From Parasphingopyxis algicola (GTDB lineage: Bacteria; Pseudomonadota; Alphaproteobacteria; Sphingomonadales; Sphingomonadaceae): a stretch of 64,000 nucleotides of DNA. The notes beneath the pieces were generated by a model. It had not been told where the DNA came from and did not search any database. It saw nothing but the letters and a program-made list of their open reading frames with translations. The stretch spans positions 1,178,001 through 1,242,000 of the forward strand of contig NZ_CP051131.1 in the NCBI RefSeq assembly GCF_013378075.1, read 5' to 3'. The position numbers were made by a program, and so were the translations under genes. This document shows positions 40,379 through 45,219 of the stretch, piece by piece (position 1 is the stretch's first letter; each line of letters opens with the position of its first letter).

Positions 40379-42289
40379 TCAGGCGCTCCGCCGCATGCTT
40401 TCCGTAGGCGAGTCCGTCTGTTTGGCCAGAAGCGCCTCAAAATCGTGCGCTTTCATCGGCTTTCCGAGAAGGAAGCCCTGCCCGCGCGTCGCGCCGAGCG
40501 CGTGCGCGAGCGCCAGCTGATACGGCGTCTCTATCCCTTCCACGATCGAATCGATCCTGAGGACCCGAGCCATGGCAATGACGGCGCGGGCGAGTTCCCG
40601 GCCGACCGGATCGCTGGGCCGCTCGATCAGCGACTTGTCGAGCTTCAGGCTGTGGATCGGCAGCAGTTGCAAAAGGCTGAAATTGGCGTAGCCGCTGCCG
40701 AAATCGTCCAGCGCGATCCGATGGCCGGCCTGCGCCAAGCGTTCGAAATTGCGCAGGGCGACATGCGTATCGATCGCAACCGTTTCGGTGACTTCGAACT
40801 CCAGTCGTTCCGGACGACAGCGTGATGCTCGAACCAGGTCGATAATCTTTCGCATCGACTGGTCCGACCGCAAATCCATCGCCGAGAGATTGACGGCCAG
40901 CGACACCGATTCCGGTATGTGCGCCGCCACCTCCAATGTTTTTTCAAGCGCGATCAGGGTGATACGCGAGACGGTTCCGGCATCCTCCGCCACAGCAATC
41001 AGTTTTGCGGGGCTGACCTGCCCCAGAGTCGGGCTGGTCCAGCGCAGCAGCGCCTCGGCACCGACGATGCGGTTGCTGGAAAGCTCGACCTGAGGCTGGA
41101 AAAGGACCTCAAGCTCGGATTCGAAGCCGTCGCTCGACATGACCTGGCCGATCTGGAACTGCTCCTCCATCGCCTGAGCGTGGCAGGCGTCGAAGACCAC
41201 GGCGCTTCCCTTGCTGTTCCGCTTGGCATGCAGCAACGCATAATCGGCATTTTCGAGCAGAGCCGCGCTAGTGTCATCCGCCGATGCTATCTCGCAGCCC
41301 GCCGAGGCCGAGATATGGATCCTCTTCCCCTCGATCTCGAACGGCCGCGCAAGATCCGCGATCAGCTGGTCGCACCAAAGCTGCATTTCCTGCAGGTCGC
41401 CGGACCCGGTGCGAAGAATGCTGAACTCGTCGCCTCCCACGCGCGCTGCGAACGCCTCGCCCGAGCAATGGCGGCGCAACCGCCGCGCCACTTCGCACAG
41501 CAGCTCGTCGCCGATCCTGTGACCGTAAACGTCGTTGACGGGTTTGAAACCGTCAAGGTCCATAACGACCAGCCAGAGCGGGTCGCGACCAGCCCGCGGC
41601 GTCTGTATTCGGTTCTCGAGCGTCTCGACAAAGGCGCGCCGGTTGGGGAGGCCGGTAAGGCTGTCGGTGTGAGACTCCGCGCGCGCGCTTTCGGCGAGCA
41701 GCTCGGCCGAAGCACGACCGCGTTCGGCCTCTCGTCGCTCGGCCAAGGCAAGCGCGATCGATTTTCGCAGGGATGCCGAGATCGCGATCGATGACACCGA
41801 ACTCGCAAACGCTATGAAGCCGTATAGGCCAGCCAATTCCGGCGCGTACTGGAAAATCTGCGCGAAAAGGCAGACAATTGCGACGACGATCGATGGAATC
41901 GTCTGCCTCAGGCTCGTTCCTGAAAAGGCGAATATCATCGCCATGACGATGAAATAGACCAGCTTCGTGCGATTAAAGTCCAGCTGGAGTGCGATCAGGA
42001 CGTTGGAAAGCACGAGAAGATTGATGAAGAGGACGATCACATCGACCTGAGCGGGTGACCGCGAACGCGCGAGCAGATAGACGCCGATCAAGGCCGCGAT
42101 CACCGTGGTGATGGATATCGCGCTGAACCAAACCAGCTCGGTGCCGCTTCGCGTTACAAAATGCGCAACCGTCATCACTGCATAATAGGCTGCTGCTACA
42201 CAGAAAAAGCCGCGAAGAATCGGAAGATACGCTTGCGTCAACGCGCAGCGATGCGTCTGCTTATCCCATTTTTCCGCCATCAAATCCAT
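40379..42289 (-). CDS. membrane-bound GGDEF/EAL cyclic-di-GMP protein
   Basis: A 636-residue regulator of cyclic-di-GMP. About six transmembrane segments occupy residues 20-180, followed by a short coiled coil, a GGDEF domain with intact GGDEF at 285-289, and an EAL domain beginning EALLRW at 412. EAL catalytic features are present (NLSAMDL, EVTET, DDFGSGY, KLDKSL, EGIET, QGFLLGKP), so phosphodiesterase activity is likely; the intact GGDEF leaves cyclase activity possible. No partner gene. ATG 42289, or 42280 three codons later. Confidence 0.95.
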   Translation of the reverse strand: MDLMAEKWDKQTHRCALTQAYLPILRGFFCVAAAYYAVMTVAHFVTRSGTELVWFSAISITTVIAALIGVYLLARSRSPAQVDVIVLFINLLVLSNVLIALQLDFNRTKLVYFIVMAMIFAFSGTSLRQTIPSIVVAIVCLFAQIFQYAPELAGLYGFIAFASSVSSIAISASLRKSIALALAERREAERGRASAELLAESARAESHTDSLTGLPNRRAFVETLENRIQTPRAGRDPLWLVVMDLDGFKPVNDVYGHRIGDELLCEVARRLRRHCSGEAFAARVGGDEFSILRTGSGDLQEMQLWCDQLIADLARPFEIEGKRIHISASAGCEIASADDTSAALLENADYALLHAKRNSKGSAVVFDACHAQAMEEQFQIGQVMSSDGFESELEVLFQPQVELSSNRIVGAEALLRWTSPTLGQVSPAKLIAVAEDAGTVSRITLIALEKTLEVAAHIPESVSLAVNLSAMDLRSDQSMRKIIDLVRASRCRPERLEFEVTETVAIDTHVALRNFERLAQAGHRIALDDFGSGYANFSLLQLLPIHSLKLDKSLIERPSDPVGRELARAVIAMARVLRIDSIVEGIETPYQLALAHALGATRGQGFLLGKPMKAHDFEALLAKQTDSPTESMRRSA

Positions 42290-42428: not shown

Positions 42429-43460
42429 CTAGCCCTTCCGCCATTTCGTCCACAGATGCCGCGCCAGCATAAGCGGCGGCATGCGGAGCCAGTGCGAGCG
42501 GATATAGAAAGCAAGGCGCACGCCCTTGCGCGTTTCGCGTCCCCAGCCGTCGCGGGCGAGCAGGCGGCGGATATAGAGGGTATCGCCCGCCCTCCCCCGT
42601 CCGGCGACATTGCCGTCGACCGGCGTATCGTAGAGCGTTTCGGCAAGGTGCAGTGCACGGCTTACGGGTTTCGCAAGCTGATGCCGTCCCGCCCTTTCTC
42701 CGAGCTCCGGCCAGAATCCCACCCGCTTACCGAAATCGCGGCACAGCCGGTCGATATCCCAGAGGTTGCGCAGGCCGCCCGCCAGATCGCCATCGGCGAA
42801 CAGATGCGCGGCGGCGTGGCAGATCATGTCGGGCGGCGAGAGGATGCGCAGGTCTCCTGAGCCTGTCGAAGGATCGAGCGGCTCGCTTTCGGCGATCATC
42901 GACGCTGCGTCGGGCGTCGGCCGCGCGGTCAGCGGCAGCACCGTATGGTGGACGTCGATCATCCGGTCGCGCTCCTTGTGGATCAGCGGCGGCAGCTCGT
43001 GCATGTGATCGCGGTAATAGGCGTCGTCATATTCGTCCTCCTTCACCCATTCCCAGCCGCCCCGTTCGATCAGGGCGCGCTCGACCGCACCGAGCGCCGC
43101 ACGGCGAACCAGGATATCGAGATCGCCGATCGAGCGCCCGATACCCGCCGAAAGACCCGCCGCGACATAGGCCGTGCCTTTGAGGAGGATAACCGGCTCC
43201 CCAAGCGGCGCCAGCACGCGGCGCGCCATCTCGGCTTCCCACAGCGCCTGGCGCCGCGCATGATCGGCCGAGCGGCGGGCATCGGCGCAAAGCTGCGCCA
43301 CCTTTGTCGGCAGGTCGAGCCCGTCGAGGCGATGGGCGAGCGTACCCATCAGCTGCTCGGCTCGGGCCATAGCAATCAGCGCGGTCCAGCCATCGGCGTC
43401 GAGAGCGCCCGTCGAGACGGGATCGGTCAGCGCGCGGGTCAGAAGGCGGGCGTCGGTCAT
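42429..43460 (-). CDS. nucleotidyltransferase-family protein of the HprK-A cassette
   Basis: The 343-residue protein is related to the uncharacterised nucleotidyltransferase family found near HprK-like kinases and lasso-peptide clusters (NTP_transf_5-like). The polymerase-beta-type motif is IGRSIGDLDILV with Asp113 and Asp115. Residues 196-203 (DPSTGSGD) are encoded by a REP-like core (42856-42872), a sign of a repeat captured in the gene. It is the last gene of the cassette, separated from the kinase gene by 166 bases of palindromic repeats. ATG 43460. Confidence 0.85.
   Translation of the reverse strand: MTDARLLTRALTDPVSTGALDADGWTALIAMARAEQLMGTLAHRLDGLDLPTKVAQLCADARRSADHARRQALWEAEMARRVLAPLGEPVILLKGTAYVAAGLSAGIGRSIGDLDILVRRAALGAVERALIERGGWEWVKEDEYDDAYYRDHMHELPPLIHKERDRMIDVHHTVLPLTARPTPDAASMIAESEPLDPSTGSGDLRILSPPDMICHAAAHLFADGDLAGGLRNLWDIDRLCRDFGKRVGFWPELGERAGRHQLAKPVSRALHLAETLYDTPVDGNVAGRGRAGDTLYIRRLLARDGWGRETRKGVRLAFYIRSHWLRMPPLMLARHLWTKWRKG
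42856..42872. repeat. REP-like core inside the nucleotidyltransferase gene
   Basis: CCTGAGCCTGTCGAAGG matches the core of the intergenic palindromes at 4692-4710 and 8823-8842. It keeps the reading frame and contributes a Gly/Ser-rich loop to the protein. Confidence 0.7.
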
Positions 43461-43467
43461 TATAATC

Positions 43468-43608
43468 CTCCCCTGCAAGGGGAGGGGGACCGGCGAAGCC
43501 GGTGGAGGGGTCTCAACGGCAACGGCGGATTCAATCGCAGGCGTTGATACCCCTCCGTAGGCCCCTTCGACAAACTCAGGGGCTGCCACCTCCCCCTTGG
43601 GGGGAGGA
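43468..43608. repeat. cluster of three palindromes between kinase and nucleotidyltransferase genes
   Basis: CCTCCCCTGCAAGGGGAGG (43468-43486), GCCCCTTCGACAAACTCAGG (from 43561, closing at 43583) and CCTCCCCCTTGGGGGGAGG (43590-43608) are each self-complementary. They fill the gap within the minus-strand cassette and could act as processing or attenuation hairpins. Confidence 0.8.
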
Positions 43609-43626
43609 TTGGGGTTGGCACATCCC

Positions 43627-44487
43627 TCACCTCACCAACTCCGCCCAGAGCCGTTCGACGCTGGCGACGGCGCTTTCGGTGTCGGGATAGTCGACCGCCC
43701 GGGTCGGGACCGTTCGCACGAGCGCGGACAGCGCTCCGAAACCCGTCTCGCCCAGTGCGACATAGTTGGTCGAGGCCTGGGTCAGCCGCACGAATATCTC
43801 CGCCTCGCCGATCTCGCGGACATCGGGTGCATGGCCGAAGCGCGGGAAGAGCAGCAGCGCGGGTTTCGCGGGTTCGGCCATCTTCGCGATCGCCTCGGCG
43901 GGCGGCCGCAAATGGCGGATATCGCCCTTGGGCGTGTCGCGCATCAAGGGACCGAGCCGGCTGGCATCGACATCGCGTTCGAAGAGCCCGATCGCCTCGT
44001 TCTTGAGACTGACCAGCCTTGGAAAGGCATGCAGCAGGCCGGTCTCCGGATCGATCAGCGCGAACTCATCGCCCATGAAGCGCCAGCCGCGCTCGCCGAG
44101 CAGCGCCGAAAGCGTCGATTTGCCGGCGCCGGATTCGCCGGTCATCAGCAGCGCCTTGCCGTCGCGCTCGACCGCCGAAGCGTGAAGCAGCAGATAGCGG
44201 CGCTGGCCGAGCGCCATTTGCAGGTTCATCCCCATCTCCGCCGCCAGCATGCCATGGGCGAGCGAGAGCGGCGCGGCGTCGGGCAGCATATAGTCGCCGC
44301 CGATCATCACCGAAGGACGCAGGAAACGCCGCCACGGCCGCTGCGCGAAGAGGCGCACGGTGAAGTCGGGTATATCGGGCGTCGGATAGCCCGCATAAAG
44401 CGCCGCCAGCCGGTCGAGCGGCTGCCGCCAGTCTGACCCGATGCGGAACCCTGTCGGGCCGACGGTCACGCGGAATTCGTGCTTCAT
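43627..44487 (-). CDS. HprK-related kinase A
   Basis: A 286-residue kinase related to HPr serine kinase. The P-loop GESGAGKS is at 117-124, preceded by LLLHASAVERDGKALLM (residues about 99-115), and followed by FMGDEFALIDPETG as in HprK-like enzymes of peptide-modification clusters. The N-terminal HPr-kinase regulatory domain is absent. No PTS or HPr gene is nearby, so the target is probably not HPr. ATG 44487 overlaps the stop of the PqqD-like gene (ATGA), showing translational coupling. Confidence 0.9.
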   Translation of the reverse strand: MKHEFRVTVGPTGFRIGSDWRQPLDRLAALYAGYPTPDIPDFTVRLFAQRPWRRFLRPSVMIGGDYMLPDAAPLSLAHGMLAAEMGMNLQMALGQRRYLLLHASAVERDGKALLMTGESGAGKSTLSALLGERGWRFMGDEFALIDPETGLLHAFPRLVSLKNEAIGLFERDVDASRLGPLMRDTPKGDIRHLRPPAEAIAKMAEPAKPALLLFPRFGHAPDVREIGEAEIFVRLTQASTNYVALGETGFGALSALVRTVPTRAVDYPDTESAVASVERLWAELVR

Positions 44488-44777
44488 GGCCGCCACACCA
44501 GCCCGGCCGCCTCCAGCTCGGCGAGACGCGCCTCCAGCGCCGCTTCGAGATCCTGGCCGCCCTTATCAGCCGGGCCGAAATCGAAATCGCGCTTCAGCCG
44601 GTCCAGCAGCGCCCGCGGCCCCGCATCCCCCTCGCCCAGGGCTTCGAGAATCTGCGGCGCGGGCGGCGCGACGATATGGGTGAGGCCGGAAGGCCGGTGG
44701 AAGATCAGCGCCACGCCGTCCAGCGCGATAACGCGCCGGGCCTCGGGCGGATCGGCGCGATAGGCGGCTTCTGTCAT
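44484..44777 (-). CDS. PqqD-like peptide chaperone of the HprK-A system
   Basis: A 97-residue protein of the size and pattern of PqqD-family proteins (RiPP recognition elements): a beta-hairpin region GVALIFHRPSGLTHIVAPPAPQILEAL followed by a helical C-terminal half. PqqD-like proteins bind leader peptides and present them to modifying enzymes. It is coupled to the HprK-related kinase downstream and follows the Tat-signal small protein gene by 19 bases, so that product is a candidate client. Confidence 0.85.
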   Translation of the reverse strand: MTEAAYRADPPEARRVIALDGVALIFHRPSGLTHIVAPPAPQILEALGEGDAGPRALLDRLKRDFDFGPADKGGQDLEAALEARLAELEAAGLVWRP

Positions 44778-44796
44778 GGCGGAAAGCGGCGGAGCG

Positions 44797-45219
44797 TCAG
44801 CTCCGCGTCATCTGGATCGACGCGTAGCAGGTAAAGCCGCTCATGCCGGTCTGCAGGCGGCGGATATAGTTGGTATAGGCCTGGCTCTGCTCATAGCCAT
44901 AGCCCGGGATCGTCCGGCCCGCCTGCAACGCGCCGCGCACTTCCTCGCCGACCAGATTGCGGCCCGGCGGCGGAAAGGCGCCCGGCGTTCCCGGCGGCAC
45001 GACCGAGCCGTCCGCGGCGATATAATTGCCCATCCGGCCGGGATCGGGAATCGGGATTTCGCAGGCCATGATCGAGGCCTGGGTCTGGGCGAGCGCGGGG
45101 CGCACCGTCACGACCGTCGACGCGGCCGCGGCGCCGAGCGCCAATACCTGGCGCCGGCCCGGCTTCGCCATGCCCTGCCCGGCGTCGTCGCCGTCCGTCT
45201 CTTTGGGTCCTTCGCTCAT
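44797..45219 (-). CDS. Tat-signal small protein, candidate cassette substrate
   Basis: The 140-residue protein starts MSEGPKETDGDD and has a twin-arginine signal (GRRQVLALGAAAAS, residues about 21-34) ending near RPALAQ. The mature part of about 95 residues is Gly/Pro-rich (PPGTPGAFPPPGRN) with two cysteines, one near its start (IMACEIP) and one near its end (FTCYASIQM). ATG 45219 follows GGAAGGA. It is the first gene of the PqqD-like/HprK-like/nucleotidyltransferase unit and may be the protein they act on; no family recognised. A structural or redox role is also possible. Confidence 0.75.
   Translation of the reverse strand: MSEGPKETDGDDAGQGMAKPGRRQVLALGAAAASTVVTVRPALAQTQASIMACEIPIPDPGRMGNYIAADGSVVPPGTPGAFPPPGRNLVGEEVRGALQAGRTIPGYGYEQSQAYTNYIRRLQTGMSGFTCYASIQMTRS

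Follow-up and report, generated by a model that had tools for sequence, protein, structure and literature searches.

The window examined in this study is a 64,000-nucleotide stretch of the Parasphingopyxis algicola genome (contig NZ_CP051131.1, positions 1,178,001 to 1,242,000), and it carries a cassette of four genes on the minus strand at window positions 42429-45219. According to the open reading frame (ORF) calls, the cassette encodes a small protein with a predicted twin-arginine translocation (Tat) signal, a PqqD-like protein, an HprK-related kinase and a nucleotidyltransferase. The kinase and the PqqD-like protein belong to HPr-rel-A, a system for which no target was found in the annotation or in the accessible portions of the open-licence literature examined. 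Our main finding is that the Tat-signal protein is apparently a constant component of this system. The operon probably makes this small protein and modifies it before export through the Tat pathway. The initial annotation of the window had described the same four minus-strand genes, including the lengths of the Tat and PqqD-like proteins, the two cysteines of the Tat protein, the GESGAGKS motif of the kinase, the DLD of the nucleotidyltransferase and the ATGA overlap between the stop codon (TGA) of the PqqD-like gene and the start codon (ATG) of the kinase gene, and the ORF calls agree with it throughout.

Association of the Tat-signal protein with the HPr-rel-A genes

The kinase was surveyed in 60 relatives and in 398 genomes of the phylum, and was found over the cut-off in 30 and 61 of them, respectively. 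Once a genome with a match below the cut-off (G040) had been added and three genomes common to both sets removed, there were 89 kinase places in 89 genomes. Two of these lie on contigs that stop before the upstream genes (L089 and L107), leaving 87 genomes that could be judged. A Tat-signal ORF is present inside the kinase operon in 80 of the 87, and a PqqD gene is recognised by its profile after the Tat gene in 74 of those 80 operons.

Six of the seven exceptions have a kinase operon that also lacks PqqD. A search of these six genomes with TIGR04353 recovered PqqD genes. Five of the genomes have a PqqD gene that is immediately preceded by a Tat ORF whose C-terminal region carries a CxxSF-type motif. 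This Tat-PqqD pair lies on a different contig from the kinase in four genomes (G081, G184, G128 and G326), while in G195 it adjoins the kinase on the opposite strand, with a PqqD score of 34.1 bits against a cut-off of 35. The lone Tat gene of G140 was located on a different contig, and that of G272 at a distance of 163 kb; in G272, PqqD adjoins the kinase without a Tat gene there. As all exceptions were traced, a Tat-signal protein of this kind is present in 87/87 judgeable genomes, and its gene is beside PqqD in 85 of them (recognised in 79, presumed in 6).

The same tie is seen within the window's own family (f1, 36 genomes), where 18 genomes have both the Tat protein and a kinase over the cut-off, and the searches found neither of them in the remaining 18. 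Among 80 loci from named records (the best 80 of 591 confirmed relatives, nearly all labelled as sphingomonads and overlapping with the 89-genome set), a hidden Markov model (HMM) of the Tat protein matched 78, and 77 of the matches adjoin the kinase operon. The remaining match, in L150, is 4.8 kb off, and both loci without a match (L136 and L191) are on contigs that start fewer than 200 bases before the kinase. The four-gene arrangement is far beyond chance. Co-occurrence of the Tat protein with the other genes, which the initial annotation had suggested surveying, therefore holds in most kinase operons and in every judgeable genome, and the outcome that this annotation named as refuting its idea, a lack of the protein in most conserved loci, did not occur. 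As read from the sequence, a putative ribosomal precursor gene stands next to a predicted recognition element, as is characteristic of ribosomally synthesised and post-translationally modified peptides (RiPPs).

Two variants of the arrangement were seen. L113 has two Tat genes around a single PqqD gene, and the lone Tat gene of G140 (locus L248) adjoins a gene whose sequence reads as a polysaccharide chain-length determinant.

Sequence conservation in the four proteins and in distant variants

The ATG start of the Tat protein sits within a 154-aa GTG ORF, the cysteines are C53 and C131, and the mature protein would be approximately 96 amino acids (aa) long. Searches of NCBIfam, Pfam, PADLOC and PHROGs returned no match, and a model of the mature protein (predicted local distance difference test (pLDDT) 77, medium confidence) had no match at E ≤ 0.001 in the PDB or among viral models. 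The twin arginine is kept in 79/79 aligned f1-type Tat proteins, whose invariant residues include P41, A42, A44, S49, C53, P58, Y115, Y118, G128, F129, T130, C131, S134 and Q136. With its twin arginine, hydrophobic stretch and A-x-A site (A42 and A44), the protein has the predicted pattern of a Tat substrate. The reading frame was chosen by hand in 17 loci.

The signal region itself is highly conserved. In the 79 f1-type sequences, mean identity is 76% over the h and c regions of the signal (26-44) versus 67% over the mature part. The Tat protein PhoD served as a control, for which 30 loci were fetched and 21 of f1 used. PhoD signals had a mean identity of 0.40 at a mature identity of 0.5-0.8 (73 pairs, mean 0.56), a value that is lowered because a few PhoD frames look mischosen, whereas the signals of the present protein had a mean identity of 0.73 at a mature identity of 0.5-0.6 (669 pairs, mean 0.565). 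The signal is thus unusually conserved relative to this control.

At the other end of the protein, a CxxS motif falls within 20 residues of the C-terminus in 60 of 75 candidates selected blind to the motif, where shuffling gave an expectation of 3.9. Five of the 15 candidates without it (L013, L025, L068, L075 and L088) resemble wrong-frame picks. Across the operon copies of the Tat protein, CxxS is present in 67/80.

The kinase and the PqqD-like protein were assigned to TIGR04352 (HprK_rel_A) and TIGR04353 (PqqD_rel_X, the HPr-rel-A system PqqD family peptide chaperone), and the nucleotidyltransferase to PF14907, with scores (Table 1) above the respective cut-offs of 200, 35 and 31.2 bits. 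These profile searches, together with the NCBI names, bear out the families suggested in the initial annotation and its naming of the kinase/PqqD pair as HPr-rel-A. Among the kinases listed from named records, the nearest belongs to Parasphingopyxis lamellibrachiae (88% identity). H102, K123, D140, E141, L161-N163 of SLKN, T185, K187 and G188 are invariant in 16 aligned kinases and nearly invariant across 170 matches.

The nucleotidyltransferase conserves GRxxxDxD...DVHH, with R104, D108, D110, D164 and H166 invariant in 45 sequences (residue numbers follow alignment A3 and are 5 lower than in the protein). The PDB entries nearest to its confident structural model (pLDDT 94.7) are nucleotidyltransferases, although no match reaches E ≤ 0.001; MenT1 (E 0.003) ranks first, followed by ANT(2'')-Ia and TglT (E ~0.03), and these are suggestive only. 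FKRP, which transfers a sugar-alcohol phosphate, appears among the matches at E 0.4 and weaker only. Since catalytic residues are conserved in both the kinase and the nucleotidyltransferase, both look active. In L072:1438-3561 both profile matches fall within a single open frame, which points to a possible fusion of the kinase and the nucleotidyltransferase.

A search of plasmids with the window nucleotidyltransferase yielded four records, each with an adjoining HprK-related kinase A, and no lasso cluster was found among the four. Plasmid pVa1 of Vibrio alfacsensis (L201:14875-17942) carries a type 2 system beside phosphonate-uptake genes, consisting of a Tat-signal protein with a CSIT/MSGN stretch, an HprK-related kinase A and a nucleotidyltransferase. 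Type 2 Tat proteins have CSISGxMS-like stretches, and several also SPGxW-like ones, in place of CxxS. Plasmid pMt-1 of Methylobacterium tardum (L203:3694-6717) has a 383-aa gene annotated as a PqqD family peptide modification chaperone, which includes a weak kinase match (27% identity, E 3e-4), with a nucleotidyltransferase gene near; it is possibly a PqqD-kinase fusion. In ten distant loci (L063, L064, L065, L073, L077, L078, L079, L082, L085 and L107) the kinase is followed by a gene whose sequence suggests a TPR-sulfotransferase, and in L082 and L107 the nucleotidyltransferase is placed after this gene. A cyclase between the kinase and the nucleotidyltransferase of distant lineages was considered and rejected, as the gene in that position is the one reading as a TPR-sulfotransferase (no family scan was made).

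Relation to known systems and genomic setting

The kinase and PqqD-like protein of the window are adjacent and both pass the curated cut-offs of HPr-rel-A. The same family names appear in the annotation of a related plasmid locus, where the Tat protein is listed as a 'hypothetical protein'. The HPr-rel-A annotation examined names no substrate, and the Tat-signal protein is an addition of the present analysis; the open-licence articles available through PubMed Central (PMC), in the parts accessible, yielded no description of the HPr-rel-A kinase/PqqD system with a Tat protein.

The clusters of the phosphorylated lasso peptides (paeninodin, pseudomycoidin and bsf) resemble the cassette in combining an HPr-kinase-type kinase with a PqqD-like RiPP recognition element (RRE) and/or an annotated nucleotidyltransferase. 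In the bsf cluster, which includes a nucleotidyltransferase gene as well, the HPr-kinase-like BsfK phosphorylates Ser3 of BsfA far more strongly when the discrete PqqD-like RRE BsfB1 is present, according to the accessible text (PMC10368454). For pseudomycoidin, the available parts of the reports describe phosphorylation of the C-terminal Ser by PsmK and installation of one or two hexoses there by PsmN, although nucleotidyl transfer with subsequent action of a host enzyme is another possible route to the hexose (PMC9266682, PMC8498205). Lasso tailoring kinases are marked by a conserved His, a P-loop Lys and an Asp pair. In the window-type kinase H102, K123 and D140 are invariant but Glu141 takes the place of the second Asp, which makes the likeness on this point ambiguous. 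The kinase profile matches BsfK over the catalytic core (30.9 bits) and the PqqD profile matches BsfB1 (20.7 bits). The lead from the initial annotation to lasso tailoring enzymes was sound.

Judged by its neighbours, the cassette is not itself a lasso peptide cluster. This possibility was rejected because the neighbours include neither an Asn-synthetase-like cyclase (C) nor a transglutaminase-like protease (B2), as the initial annotation had also noted; no lasso B2 protease, cyclase or exporter was found among the window neighbours scanned or the neighbours of an annotated relative. The SynChlorMet protein ScmC (TIGR04249) is HprK-related like the window kinase, but the latter scores just 29 bits against a cut-off of 125, and no radical-SAM gene is among the scanned neighbours. 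An anti-phage defence role was likewise rejected, the sole PADLOC match being a weak one of the kinase to mad8 (E 0.004), and a PHROGs search of the Tat protein, kinase and nucleotidyltransferase for a phage origin returned no match.

Table 1. Features of the four-gene cassette, with coordinates in the 64,000-nucleotide window
Feature	Position	Strand	Details
Tat-signal protein, candidate precursor/substrate	44797..45219	(-)	140 aa; no family match
Predicted Tat signal, R22-R23 to A44	45088..45156	(-)	By pattern; cleavage probably after RPALA
C131-x-x-S134 motif; S134 a putative phosphorylation site	44818..44829	(-)	C131 and S134 invariant in 79/79
PqqD-like RiPP recognition element, HPr-rel-A type	44484..44777	(-)	97 aa; TIGR04353, 55.8 bits
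HprK-related kinase A	43627..44487	(-)	286 aa; GESGAGKS; TIGR04352, 228.7 bits
PF14907 nucleotidyltransferase	42429..43460	(-)	343 aa, ATG start; contains GDLDILV; 158 bits

The cassette is flanked on one side by a histidine kinase gene and phosphate-transport genes, and on the other by a GGDEF-EAL gene, a HAD hydrolase and a glmU-like gene; these make up the seven scanned neighbours, three of which are transporter proteins of the phosphate-uptake type. The GGDEF-EAL gene (window 40379-42289) lies between the nucleotidyltransferase and the HAD hydrolase and glmU-like genes. The annotation of Sphingomonas parapaucimobilis shows the same setting, with pho/pst genes, cassette, HAD hydrolase, glmU and glmS, and labels the Tat protein a 'hypothetical protein'. 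This setting can also be read in L113 and L114, from other families of the order, and in L113, L114 and L119 the HAD-type gene directly follows the nucleotidyltransferase. Within the cassette, the gap between kinase and nucleotidyltransferase (window 43463-43626) is GC-rich and partly palindromic (e.g., CTCCCCTGCAAGGGGAGG), and resembles a dispersed repeat.

PEP-CTERM/XrtA polysaccharide loci often occur in the same genomes as the cassette, and sometimes near it. The C-terminus of the Tat protein (GFTCYASIQMTRS) has, by inspection, no PEP-CTERM tail of PEP motif, transmembrane helix and basic end, and the protein has no Pfam or NCBIfam match. XrtA over the cut-off was found in 28/30 kinase-positive relatives versus 14/30 others (Fisher p 7e-5, kinship ignored) and, in the phylum sample, in 25/61 kinase genomes versus 10/337 others (p 2e-15, kinship likewise ignored). 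Of the relatives outside f1, 13 count as kinase genomes, and in 10 of these the kinase lies 3-14 kb from XrtA (in one of the ten, G040, both matches are below the cut-offs); XrtA is on another contig in G037 and G047, and was not found in G055. In genomes of other classes with both genes, the distance is 12-56 kb in 6/12. This partial linkage suggests an envelope or exopolysaccharide role, as a lead rather than a result.

A trypsin-like protease gene (PF13365) lies beside XrtA in L119:7467-8240, and several relatives have one on the XrtA contig. The protease was rejected as a fifth component: it is found in 12/60 relatives, is absent from the window genus, and is present in G042, which has XrtA and the protease but no kinase over the cut-off.

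Proposed modification and export of the Tat-signal protein

On the precedent of BsfK/BsfB1 and PsmK/PsmN, we propose PqqD-aided phosphorylation, a second transfer and Tat export. The Tat protein would be made by the ribosome as a precursor, with its unusually conserved signal region serving as a leader too. The PqqD-like protein would bind this leader and present the precursor to the HprK-type kinase, which would phosphorylate a hydroxyl residue, most likely the Ser of the C-terminal CxxS (S134). The PF14907 enzyme could then add a hexose, or a nucleotidyl or sugar-phosphate group, to the phosphate. We infer that the folded product is exported via Tat, perhaps with a disulfide between C53 and C131 formed after transport. 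The initial annotation had suggested that the Tat protein, or another short peptide, is bound by the PqqD-like protein and then phosphorylated or nucleotidylated, a reading that the present analysis supports in part, and that the chemistry may be new. The substrate does look new, being a Tat-exported protein and not a lasso precursor, but the sequence of phosphoserine followed by hexose has been published, as far as the accessible reports on pseudomycoidin go, and so the chemistry may be less new than was suggested. A more specific version, in which the cassette defines a Tat-exported RiPP-like class with the signal as leader and a phosphoserine-linked glycan at the C-terminal Ser that acts as acceptor, primer or anchor for exopolysaccharide, is tentative and rather unlikely.

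Several observations weigh against the proposal. The genomes are related, so the counts are not independent, and sampling of the phylum was uneven. A simple pattern, and not a trained predictor, was used to assign Tat signals. In a plain sequence search, the window Tat protein was found in 19/60 relatives (18 of f1 and one f3 genome), and in the other genomes the association is based on gene position, the Tat signal and the C-terminal motif. PqqD is unrecognised in 6/80 operons, with an ORF of 73-93 aa in its place; similarly, pVa1 has in the PqqD place an unannotated 84-aa ORF without an NCBIfam match. In 2/87 genomes (G140 and G272) the Tat gene adjoins neither PqqD nor the kinase. The 13/80 operon copies without CxxS comprise 11 type 2 proteins of other lineages, the broken copy L029, and L081, whose C-terminal stretch AYTSI has a Ser without the Cys; S134 is therefore not the site everywhere. 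Lastly, the known lasso kinases act on short precursors, whereas the mature Tat candidate is approximately 96 aa long, and BsfK has Asp-Asp where the window-type kinase has Asp-Glu (D140-E141).

Three other explanations were considered for the same genes. By analogy with the maturation chaperones known for Tat substrates, the PqqD-like protein could be a Tat-signal proofreading chaperone that keeps the small protein bound while it folds, with the kinase and nucleotidyltransferase acting on another target in the same process. The strong conservation of the signal region relative to the control and the persistence of the Tat-PqqD pair in four genomes with the kinase on another contig would both suit such a role. 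However, it leaves unexplained why the Tat protein and kinase are tied to the same half of the f1 genomes, and the weak kinase match inside the pMt-1 PqqD-family gene also speaks against it, making this explanation quite unlikely. It is unlikely, too, though less so, that the cassette is a polysaccharide accessory in which the two enzymes modify a glycan, a lipid carrier or an exopolysaccharide enzyme, and the Tat protein, instead of being the substrate, acts in the periplasm as a partner or regulator. The enrichment and proximity of XrtA favour this idea, along with the glmU/glmS neighbours of some loci and the genes that, from sequence, resemble glycosyltransferases before the Tat gene in several distant loci. 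Yet 36/61 of the phylum kinase genomes have no XrtA over the cut-off (6 of them have weaker exosortase matches), XrtA is 617 kb from the cassette in the window genome, a single ancestral event may account for the linkage in Sphingomonadales, and the PqqD-like element points to a peptide substrate.

Regulation of metabolism by the kinase through HPr or a similar carrier, with coincidental neighbours, is highly improbable. Although the best matches of the kinase by sequence among solved structures are HPr kinases, it scores 21.6 bits against a cut-off of 240 for the HPr kinase model, and the observed co-occurrence cannot come from coincidence.

Modification of the small protein ahead of its export thus remains our preferred reading. 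A constant Tat partner gives an orphan kinase system a likely, testable substrate and, for most members, a residue. If the reading is correct, RRE-aided Ser phosphorylation would extend from short lasso precursors to exported proteins. Such chemistry would then occur in the sphingomonads and in distant Pseudomonadota, a Vibrio plasmid among them, and may be linked to the cell envelope.

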